From Hellea sp. (lineage in GTDB: Bacteria; Pseudomonadota; Alphaproteobacteria; Caulobacterales; Maricaulaceae), in the NCBI GenBank assembly GCA_020629545.1, contig JAHDDC010000003.1, positions 1 through 64,000 of the forward strand: a stretch of 64,000 nucleotides of DNA, given 5' to 3'. Position 1 is the first letter of the stretch. Each line of letters begins with the position of its first letter. Below the pieces are notes generated by a model. That model made no database searches and was not told the DNA's origin. It saw nothing but the letters and a program-made list of their open reading frames with translations. This document shows, piece after piece, positions 21,018 to 24,112 of the stretch. The translations under genes were made by a program, and so were the position numbers.

Positions 21018-21626
21018 TTAATGCCCGCAATGACGGCTATGAACGTGATGGTGACGTCTGCGATGAGTTCTGTAACGTGGACGATAATAATGGTTGCCAC
21101 CAAATAAACCGCTTCCACCATAATAACCGCCAGATCCGATGCTAATGCTGACGCGTGGACGGCTGTAGTATGATGAACCATAATATGGTGTCCGGTAGCT
21201 CGATCCATAATAAGTCGGTCTGTAATAGTTACTATGCGTGTAGGTCGGGTAACTAGGGTAGCTATAGCTTGGATAGCTATAGTTATGCCCATAACCTGTA
21301 TTATAGTAACTTCCGCCACCGCTATAGTAGTTTCCGCCGCCATAATAATTACCGCCATGACCGCTTCCGCCGCCTGCGATTGCGTATCCGGCTACGCCTC
21401 CAAGAACTGCGCCAAGCGCTGTGCCTTCTTGTTGGACATCGCCTGCGGCCAGGTTCGATCCAAGGACGCCGCCTGCAATTGCGCCTATCGCTGTCCCCAA
21501 GAGGCGATCACCGCCACTATTGCTCTGATGACGATGGTGGTACCCGTTGTCATGTGCAGAAGCTGTTATCGGAGCGGCGGCCATAAGGGCTGCGGCACCT
21601 AAAACAAATCCAATTCTAGTTTTCAT
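21018..21626 (-). CDS. glycine-zipper 2TM secreted protein, Tyr/Gly/His-rich (paralogue 1)
   Basis: Signal peptide; GTAIGAIAGGVLGSNLAAGDVQQEGTALGAVLGGVAGYAIAGG; low-complexity YYGGG/PSYSYPSYP tail. Confidence 0.85.
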   Translation of the reverse strand: MKTRIGFVLGAAALMAAAPITASAHDNGYHHRHQSNSGGDRLLGTAIGAIAGGVLGSNLAAGDVQQEGTALGAVLGGVAGYAIAGGGSGHGGNYYGGGNYYSGGGSYYNTGYGHNYSYPSYSYPSYPTYTHSNYYRPTYYGSSYRTPYYGSSYYSRPRVSISIGSGGYYGGSGLFGGNHYYRPRYRTHRRRHHHVHSRHCGH

Positions 21627-21695
21627 TGAGTTTCTCCTTGAAACGATATGAGTGTCAGGCGTGCGTCCCAGCTCCCCTGAACATCCCCCGCAATT

Positions 21696-21710
21696 TTAAC
21701 TATGCATTAA
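21696..21710. promoter_or_regulatory. CtrA-like box TTAA-N7-TTAA
   Basis: TTAACTATGCATTAA, 70 bp upstream of glycine-zipper gene 1. Confidence 0.4.
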
Positions 21711-21740
21711 TCATTCCAAGAAATCAAAGACTAGAGTCAC

Positions 21741-21770
21741 ATAAAAAAACGGCCCTGAAAGAGGGCCGTT
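21741..21770 (-). terminator. Rho-independent terminator for glycine-zipper gene 2
   Basis: Minus strand reads AACGGCCCTCTTTCAGGGCCGTTTTTTTAT. Confidence 0.85.
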
Positions 21771-21793
21771 TGAAATTCATTATTGTGCTAAAT

Positions 21794-23161
21794 CTAGCAA
21801 ATACGACGTCCGCGGTTGTCGTAACGGTGAGAACTACCGGAGTAGCAATATACACCGCCATGTCCGCCGCCGGTTGTAGTCACATTACCAAGCGGTTGTG
21901 TTACTGTTTCAGGAACCGTTGTCGTTACAGGTTTTTGTACTGTGACGGGCTTCATAACTGTTTGCTGCTGCATTTCTGTAACCGACTTCATCACGGTTTC
22001 AGACTTATACTCTGTGTGCGGCTGCATTTCAGTATACGGCTGCATTTCAGTATGCGGTTGCATCTCAGTGTGCGGCTGCATCTCAGTTGTTTGCTGCATC
22101 TCAGTTGTTTGCTGCATTTCTGTGTGAGCCTGCATTTCGGTATGAGGCTGCATCTCAGTGGTTTGCTCCATATCCATATAAGTCTCGTAATCTGTGTAAG
22201 ACTCGTAGTCTGTATAGGTCTGGGTTTCAGTATGCGGCTGCATTTCAGTTACTGGCTTCATAACTGTCACCGGCTTCATGACTGTGACAGGCTTCATGAC
22301 TGTTACTTCTTTTGTCTTTGTGACAGGACGCTGTTTTGTCACTGTCCGTTGACGCTCAACAGGCTTCATAACAGAAACCGGCTTCATAACTGTTACAGGT
22401 TTTTGAACCGTCACAGGCTTAGAAACTGTTACAGGTTTCATAACAGAAACCGGCTTCATTACCGTTACAGGCTTTTGCACTGTGACGGGCTTCATAGTAG
22501 TGACAGGTTTCATAACCGTGACAGCGCGCTGAACGGTTTCAGGCTTTTGAACAGTTACAGGTACTGATACTGTATGAGGCTGCATTTCAGTTGTGGTTTG
22601 CATCGTTGTAACCGGACGCTGAATTGTGACAGTTCTGTAGGCTGGCTGAGTCGTGTAGCTCTGAGTTACAAACTGACCGCTATGGACTGCAGATGGTGCC
22701 GGCATAGCAGGCGCCGTTACAACCGTACCGCCATAGCTTCCGCCGCCATAATATCCACCGCCAGCATAGCCGCCGCCATTATATCCATAACCGCTACCGT
22801 AACGGCTAGAGCCTACAAATCCGCCGCCGTGATGACCACCGCCATAACTGCCGCCGCCGTAATAACCTCCACCGTAGTGGCCACCGCCGTAATGACCGCC
22901 GCTATGGCCTGTGCCGTAACGAGATGACTTTGATAATTTATTCGCTAATCCGTAGCCAACAAGTCCGCCGACTGCCGCGCCTAACGCTGTTCCTTCTTGC
23001 TGGACGTCGCCAGCTGCCAGGTTTGATCCGAGAACTCCACCGGCCACAGCACCAATTGCTGTCCCCAGGACGTCTCCGCTACTTACGCCCACTTGGGCAT
23101 TTGCTGTTGCCGGAATGGCAAGAAGTGCCGCAGTTGCAGCGCTCATAATAAAACGATTCAT
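21794..23161 (-). CDS. glycine-zipper 2TM secreted protein with hexapeptide repeat domain (paralogue 2)
   Basis: Signal peptide; GTAIGAVAGGVLGSNLAAGDVQQEGTALGAAVGGLVGYGLANK; GGG[YHS]-rich region; repeats of [T/S]V[MQ]KPV and TEMQPH. Confidence 0.9.
   Translation of the reverse strand: MNRFIMSAATAALLAIPATANAQVGVSSGDVLGTAIGAVAGGVLGSNLAAGDVQQEGTALGAAVGGLVGYGLANKLSKSSRYGTGHSGGHYGGGHYGGGYYGGGSYGGGHHGGGFVGSSRYGSGYGYNGGGYAGGGYYGGGSYGGTVVTAPAMPAPSAVHSGQFVTQSYTTQPAYRTVTIQRPVTTMQTTTEMQPHTVSVPVTVQKPETVQRAVTVMKPVTTMKPVTVQKPVTVMKPVSVMKPVTVSKPVTVQKPVTVMKPVSVMKPVERQRTVTKQRPVTKTKEVTVMKPVTVMKPVTVMKPVTEMQPHTETQTYTDYESYTDYETYMDMEQTTEMQPHTEMQAHTEMQQTTEMQQTTEMQPHTEMQPHTEMQPYTEMQPHTEYKSETVMKSVTEMQQQTVMKPVTVQKPVTTTVPETVTQPLGNVTTTGGGHGGVYCYSGSSHRYDNRGRRIC
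21893..22640 (-). repeat. 18-bp period coding repeat (hexapeptide TVMKPV / TEMQPH)
   Basis: Successive AC(A/N)GTCATGAAGCCnGT and ACTGAAATGCAGCCnCAC units, varying mainly at synonymous positions. Confidence 0.92.
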
Positions 23162-23304
23162 GGCAATAAGCTCCCTATTCGCCTAACATTCGCTTCGGCT
23201 ATGCAAAATGCACGCCAAAGTCATAATTTTATTCAGACCCCGGTCTCTCGAGGGTATTTAGAACTGTCGCTTTTATATTGTAAACGTTCAAATACAGTTA
23301 CTAA

Positions 23305-23332
23305 ACGAAAAAACCCGGCAAAGCCGGGTTCA
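23305..23332 (-). terminator. Rho-independent terminator for glycine-zipper gene 3
   Basis: Minus strand AACCCGGCTTTGCCGGGTTTTTTCG. Confidence 0.85.
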
Positions 23333-23353
23333 TTCTTCTTGTAGGAGAGTTAC

Positions 23354-24112
23354 CTAGTAACTCGTCTTGTAATAGGCGCGATCATAGTGACGGTCACGAT
23401 CTTTGATACGTCTTTTCTTGTCTTTCAGCCGAGCTAACTCATCACCTATTTGCCATAATCGGCGTTCAATTGAGCGATCATATCCCGCATAACGTCTTTG
23501 TTTTTCCAAATATTCGCGTTCGCGGCGTAACTCGCTGATTTCCCATTTGATATGATCCAATCGGGATTCGTTACGGCTACAAACGTGAGAATGTCGCTCA
23601 AATGGAGTGTATCCACGGTTTCTGTGGGGATTGCCAACAGCACGGCCACGGTTATGGGATGCCGGGTGTGACCGATATCCATAAGAGTTGCGATAGGTGG
23701 TTCCGGTTCGATAAGGTGTGCCATATTGGGACGAACCGTAAGTGCGGCTACCGTAATTCCTGTTGGTTGGGTAATAAGTATTTGTTCTATAGCCCGAATT
23801 ATATCCCGAACGATATCTTTCGGCGCAATCTTTGTCAGCAATGGCGATGCCAGCTGCAGCGCCCAATGCGGCTCCGAGTGCAGATCCTTCAGATCGTGCG
23901 CCATTCCCAGCGACTTGCGAACCGGCGACGCCGCCAGCAACCGCGCCAATCACACCACCTAAAATTTGTGCTTCGGTGTCAGCTTTTCGGCACTCATCAT
24001 ATCTGTAATTGGAATTATGTGAATTTCCGGCGTATGCCATCGTCGGTAATCCGACAGTAGCCGCGCCAAGAAAGACGGCGGCCATGAGTTTTTTGCGAGA
24101 GAGTGTTTTCAT
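23354..24112 (-). CDS. glycine-zipper 2TM secreted protein, Tyr/Arg-rich with charged coiled-coil-like C-terminus (paralogue 3)
   Basis: Signal peptide; GGVIGAVAGGVAGSQVAGNGARSEGSALGAALGAAAGIAIADKDC; C-terminal RLDHIKWEISELRREREYLEKQ. Confidence 0.85.
   Translation of the reverse strand: MKTLSRKKLMAAVFLGAATVGLPTMAYAGNSHNSNYRYDECRKADTEAQILGGVIGAVAGGVAGSQVAGNGARSEGSALGAALGAAAGIAIADKDCAERYRSGYNSGYRTNTYYPTNRNYGSRTYGSSQYGTPYRTGTTYRNSYGYRSHPASHNRGRAVGNPHRNRGYTPFERHSHVCSRNESRLDHIKWEISELRREREYLEKQRRYAGYDRSIERRLWQIGDELARLKDKKRRIKDRDRHYDRAYYKTSY

Follow-up and report, generated by a model that had tools for sequence, protein, structure and literature searches.

Mirror-paired hexapeptide arrays, probably forming a giant beta-hairpin, in secreted proteins of Robiginitomaculaceae

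The window, that is, the whole 64,000-nucleotide stretch of contig JAHDDC010000003.1 that was analyzed, contains three tandem genes encoding secreted glycine-zipper proteins (21018-24112), each followed by a terminator-like hairpin. The cluster is flanked by a TlyA-like gene and an alpha/beta-hydrolase gene, both named from their sequences, and the identical cluster order in identical surroundings was found in Hellea balneolensis (L076). The middle gene, which starts with ATG at 23161 and ends with a stop codon at 21794-21796 on the minus strand according to its open reading frame and translation, encodes the hexapeptide domain described here. The features of the locus are as follows.

23354..24112, minus strand: upstream glycine-zipper paralogue without the hairpin domain (PF05433, 25.7 bits)
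23311-23331: terminator-like site of the upstream paralogue
21797..23161, minus strand: whole middle gene, encoding a 455-residue secreted glycine-zipper protein with the predicted giant hairpin domain (open reading frame, translation)
23096..23161, minus strand: signal peptide, residues 1-22 (MNRFIMSAATAALLAIPATANA), read from the sequence
22952..23068, minus strand: glycine zipper 2TM domain (PF05433), residues 32-70 (Pfam)
22682..22936, minus strand: linker rich in Gly, Tyr, His, and Ser, residues 76-160, of variable length (alignment)
22268..22627, minus strand: N arm, residues 179-298, 20 hexads, net charge +16 (rung table, arm lengths, AlphaFold2 strands)
22304..22357, minus strand: R-type rungs 3-5 of the N arm (ERQRTV TKQRPV TKTKEV), opposite the Tyr/acidic rungs
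22253..22279, minus strand: putative tip, or mirror axis, residues 295-303 around T299 (MKPVTVMKP), at the AlphaFold2 turn
21905..22264, minus strand: C arm, residues 300-419, 20 hexads, net charge -15 (rung table, arm lengths)
22175..22228, minus strand: Tyr/acidic rungs 3-5 of the C arm (YTDYESYTDYETYMDM insert), whose rung numbers match those of the R-type units across homologues
21797..21853, minus strand: C-terminal motif VYCYSGSSHRYDNRGRRIC, with two Cys conserved in most members and present also in hairpin-less members
21747..21771, minus strand: terminator-like hairpin 3' of the gene
21018..21626, minus strand: downstream glycine-zipper paralogue without the hairpin domain (PF05433, 35.3 bits)

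The signal peptide has no lipobox Cys and is kept in the orthologues, as read from the sequence and the alignment. The match of residues 32-70 to PF05433 scored 26.2 bits against a curated cut-off of 24.2, which places the protein in this family, and the glycine zipper is presumed to be a membrane anchor. The sequence-only reading had pointed to a terminal Cys; it is indeed the last residue, but it does not stand alone, being the second Cys of a conserved pair in the C-terminal consensus VYCYxGSSxRYDxxGrxIxC, which is possibly a disulfide-closed element. The motif CYxGSSxRYDxxGrxI(x)nC also recurs in orthologues of the middle gene that have no hairpin domain (L076, L032, L033, L042, and L064).

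The hexapeptide domain spans residues ~174-423 (21893-22640) and is one domain of the 455-residue protein. The hexapeptide pattern with an 18-bp period that had been proposed from the sequence proved to be real, with its units and insert as described: Tandem Repeats Finder detected periods of 18, 36, 54, and 72 bp with scores up to 216, and the translation contains TVMKPV/SVMKPV/TVQKPV and TEMQPH/TEMQQT units, 14 KPV, and the insert YTDYESYTDYETYMDME. The main unit types are TVMKPV and TKxRPV in the N arm, and TEMQPH and YTDYES in the C arm. Both the basic and the acidic flavors noted earlier are thus present, but they do not form simple blocks, as some acidic TEMQPH units are found in the N arm and some basic TVMKPV/TVQKPV units in the C arm, each facing the opposite type. 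The earlier view that neighboring units differ mainly at synonymous positions, with selection on the protein, was borne out (pS 0.85 versus pN 0.18 in the N arm, and 0.69 versus 0.19 in the C arm). Strong purifying selection on the domain was also found between species (e.g., dN/dS 0.022 for L010 versus L011). Among the units, synonymous divergence has reached or nearly reached saturation, and the arms of L010 and L011 are equal in length at a domain dS of 1.1; there is therefore no sign of rapid length change.

Relatives of the domain were found in eight of the ten searched genomes of the window's own genus, including whole-gene orthologues in seven further genomes, and in five genomes of a second genus, Hellea balneolensis included. 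The domain was thus found only in these two genera of Robiginitomaculaceae, either fused to a glycine zipper or free-standing, and none was found outside the family among 298 sampled genomes of the order. In a third genus, weak matches were confined to the C-terminal portion of the profile; the inspected protein, L064, has the C-terminal motif without hexad arrays. On inspection, weak class-level matches turned out to be unrelated repeat sequences or repeat reading frames, and tblastn matches in phages and plasmids, whose alignments spanned under half of the domain at 25-42% identity, were read as low-complexity. An orthologue within the genus (L028, 1321-2082) keeps the zipper, the linker, and the C-terminal motif without the repeat domain and without the last Cys; since both flanks occur there without it, the domain is a module. 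In Hellea, the domain stands free behind a signal peptide (L014-L017 and L055), and the zipper gene at the syntenic position in H. balneolensis contains different repeats. That the zipper and the domain are fused in one genus and separate in the other hints that they may act in one place. Repeats of the form CPxGTTxQxxGxC fill the hairpin slot in L033 and L076 (2008-3540), and articulin/alveolin-like repeats (VDRPVVKEVIKHVDRVQ, EVPKIIEKPVVQYVDRVQ) fill it in two further genomes of the family, L029 and L036, where the reading frames reach the end of the stretch examined.

The fold was predicted with AlphaFold2 from an alignment of 11 rows. The model of the H. balneolensis homologue L016 is one giant beta-hairpin, with strands at residues 38-138 and 148-248 (101 residues each) and block pLDDT values mostly of 85-92. 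For the domain in the window, four long strands were predicted, with a middling mean pLDDT of 68, and the breaks lie opposite each other across the same axis as in L016, so that the model can be read as a kinked hairpin centered on T299. The pTM values were only 0.25-0.26. The extended, stalk-like shape suggested earlier is supported. AlphaFold2 can yield confident but false beta structures for repeats, as shown for beta-solenoids (PMC11795689), and because of this over-confidence the hairpin was checked against facts that do not depend on the model. Foldseek provided no real structural match: the best E value against the PDB was 3.8e-4, yet TM-scores were below 0.2 among the matches listed, and matches to viral models at E<=0.001 had TM-scores of <=0.20.

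The lengths of the two arms are matched. Measured from fixed landmarks, the C arm minus the N arm is -2 in all eight fused orthologues, whose N arms take six values (126, 120, 138, 150, 150, 90, 90, and 84 residues), and -3 in all five free-standing homologues, with an N arm of 114 residues once and 96 four times. Counted from base landmarks common to all 13 proteins of both groups, the numbers of rungs are 13, 14, 14, 16 (four proteins), 19, 19, 20, 22, 24, and 24, and the corresponding base rung faces the corresponding partner unit in each of the 13. The proteins are not independent, since all 13 come from two genera; in the fused group, at least five length changes are needed on the tree, each matched on both arms.

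The identities of the units are matched as well. When the hexads were listed outward from the axis, arm versus arm, TKxRPV-type and Tyr/acidic-type (DYESYT) runs were observed to face each other, both starting at rung 3 and ending together at rung 5, 6, 8, or 10 in nearly all proteins (rungs 3-5 in most, 3-6 in L013, 3-8 in L014, and 3-10 in L012). Departures are limited to a few isolated rungs and to L009, in which the unit TLQRPV at rung 5 on the N side was not counted as TKxRPV. The Tyr/Asp insert singled out earlier is present and can be reread as the partner of the TKxRPV units. In L009 and L011 together, EVMKPV faces the Arg units EMQRAT/EMQRTT, with six rungs having both, two having E only, none having R only, and 16 having neither (Fisher p=2e-4). 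In seven of the eight fused orthologues, the N arm contains a TEMQPH-type unit with VMKPVT or IMKPVT opposite it in the C arm; the eighth, L012, has no TEMQPH-type unit at that place. The short middle stretch of L012, taken by itself, did not show a significant association (p=0.46).

When charge pairs were counted at successive register shifts, the peak lay at about register 0 to +4 but was broad, since each arm is a charge block (net charges of +10 to +17 versus -7 to -19 in the fused group), and mutual information with circular shifts, which preserve block structure, was used instead. With the register fixed beforehand from the AlphaFold2 turn, not from the mutual information, the cross-arm value over six direct pairs was 5.07 at register 0, compared with <=3.73 at shifts of 1-6 rungs, and in each of the 13 proteins register 0 exceeded every other circular shift. 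With seven representatives from which the conserved tip and base rungs had been removed, the values were 4.68 versus <=3.23. The un-mirrored order reached 4.37 at its best shift, this value being the maximum over all shifts. The prolines in the arms of the 13 proteins lie exclusively at even distances from the axis (241 even, 0 odd), on the face that also carries Thr and Met (Met 17-20% of this face), and none of these arms contains Gly or Cys. As the insertions and deletions are multiples of six, proline parity is partly inherited and is taken as supporting evidence only.

The pairing of the basic and acidic arrays as antiparallel mirror images about residue 299 is thus well supported. The segregation of charge, which had been proposed as a possible driver of self-association, does not primarily point to self-association or phase separation and is better explained by one-to-one mirror pairing, given the lockstep lengths and the rung covariation. 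The domain is probably a giant antiparallel beta-hairpin, a charge-zipped two-stranded ribbon that serves the envelope as a stalk or spacer and bears a conserved tip. Each rung would consist of two hexapeptides distant in sequence, a basic one in the N arm (TVMKPV, TKxRPV, or EVMKPV) and a matched acidic or polar one in the C arm (TEMQPH, YTDxES, or TEMQRA). One face would carry Thr, Met, and Pro, and the other would set V/K/V against E/Q/H, or V/R/K against D/E/Y, pairs that would zip the ribbon by complementarity of charge and size. With proline on one face only, the outer edges would be poor in hydrogen-bond donors, and the ribbon could stay two-stranded without extending sideways into an amyloid-like sheet. 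In the window, arms of about 120 residues with 20 hexad rungs would extend about 40 nm at 0.33 nm per residue, and the best reading of the homologues gives predicted lengths of 26-48 nm. The base would be held in a membrane, presumably the outer one, by the glycine zipper, with the axis region as the far tip; the axis is near-invariant in the 13 homologues and, with its flanks, is more conserved than any other part, a pattern that fits a functional tip. From the shape, secretion, and anchor, we infer that the most likely role is that of a variable-length envelope stalk or spacer holding the tip at a set distance. A lone two-stranded ribbon of 40 nm would be unusual, and lateral partners may be needed.

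The main rival to the closed hairpin, because the axis has no turn residues, is a strand-swapped antiparallel dimer of about 80 nm with an anchor at each end, which could bridge two membranes or cells. The dimer would explain the covariation equally well, since position i would pair with 2c-i of the partner, and it suits a hexad periodicity that runs continuously through an axis without Gly, Asn, or Asp. However, K faces K near the axis, which would make a poor dimer center but is tolerable in a loop, and the free-standing homologues have no recognized anchor. AlphaFold2 also gave a closed hairpin, although a single-chain prediction cannot show a dimer. The dimer is considered unlikely, and the closed hairpin is preferred because AlphaFold2 predicts it and because both chain ends would then lie at the anchored base.

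An extended, unpaired low-complexity chain, such as a disordered or polyproline-like spacer whose mirror order comes from another constraint, would agree with the composition and with the tendency of AlphaFold2 to invent order in repeats (PMC11795689); as it predicts neither the matched rungs, the peak at register 0, the coincidence of E with R units, nor the prolines on one face, it seems improbable. It is very improbable that the repeat is a sponge whose Met/His-rich units (MxxH in TEMQPH) bind copper or silver. The C arm has repeated M-Q-P-H and the even face is rich in Met, but M and H three residues apart would sit on opposite faces of a beta strand, the free-standing homologues and L012 obey the pairing rules with few MQPH units, and none of the neighboring genes seen is a metal gene. 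Hardly any weight falls on the beta-solenoid of hexapeptide coils (left-handed beta-helix) that the sequence-only reading had suggested. The six-residue period and a very weak LpxD-type match (NF002060, E=0.23) would speak for it, but no hexapeptide family of Pfam matched at E<=5, AlphaFold2 gave paired long strands of a hairpin instead of a solenoid, and a solenoid does not require equal arms or mirrored units.

The giant hairpin leads to a broader proposal, towards which we lean with some reserve: the family may represent a new class of repeat proteins with a non-contiguous rung and a pairing code (K:Q, R:E, and E with R), which lengthens only by matched insertions and forms free-standing two-stranded ribbons of up to ~48 nm on or in the envelope. 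To our knowledge, the repeat proteins described so far lengthen by the addition of consecutive units, whereas in this family the two halves of a unit lie in distant arrays that are obliged to change together. The natural variants of 13 to 24 rungs show that evolution made such coupled changes several times and offer a natural test of how coupled insertions arise. Protein design could make use of the sequence code for two-stranded beta ribbons that are long and do not aggregate, and marine prosthecate bacteria may possess a new kind of envelope stalk.

Searches of Pfam, NCBIfam, PHROG, and the PDB returned nothing that explains the hexapeptide domain. A reading as a Cementoin/transglutaminase substrate was rejected: the Cementoin profile (PF10511) passed its cut-off here (35 versus 27 bits; residues 231-257, 22391-22471) but reached E<=1 in only four of 12 homologues, and the match is apparently a chance similarity of K/P/V hexapeptides. 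The protein shares with SlyB and other PF05433 proteins an N-terminal zipper above the cut-off, secretion, and tandem paralogues; it differs from SlyB in having no lipobox and an inserted hairpin domain, and the SlyB structure matched weakly (E=0.087). Articulin/epiplastin-like proteins, including those noted in Caulobacter (PMC6212826), are likewise low-complexity and rich in V, P, and charged residues and have been reported in Caulobacterales. Their long predicted beta strands and low A+G content are found here as well (AlphaFold2 strands; A+G 0.8%), but the enrichment of their medial domain in acid/base dyads is not, with only two adjacent dyads in 241 residues, and here the charges are segregated by arm in mirrored arrays. 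The YTV proteins of Planctomycetia (PF07639) are also envelope proteins with repeat motifs and are described as Cys-rich (PMC10632474, PMC8567305), whereas no Cys was found in the arms of the 13 proteins. The YTV profile gave a sub-threshold match in one of 12 homologues (E=0.014) and no match at E<=0.01 in 137 genomes, where the controls likewise gave none. The stalks of periscope proteins and fibrillar adhesins (SasG, Rib, and SHIRT; PMC8201768) resemble the predicted ribbon as elongated rods whose unit number varies between homologues, 13 to 24 rungs here, and could set a projection length. They differ in being built of consecutive domains, not of rungs from two distant hexapeptides; in the present family, synonymous divergence of the units near saturation gives no sign of rapid length switching. 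No ligand-binding domain was recognized in the protein.

Periscope stalks, articulin-like proteins, and YTV proteins are the nearest in kind, and articulins and YTV proteins each have a compared feature that is absent here. Among giant or longest beta-hairpins in the literature, only a phage chaperone hairpin of ~8.8 nm was found. On computational evidence only and an open-access literature search of limited reach, the architecture appears to be new. In the antiparallel coiled coils of SMC/Rad50 proteins, two arms of one chain pair with each other and hence have matched lengths. Although the family described here has beta-strand hexad repeats in place of alpha helices and has no ATPase, SMC-type arms provide a conceptual precedent for its matched arms.
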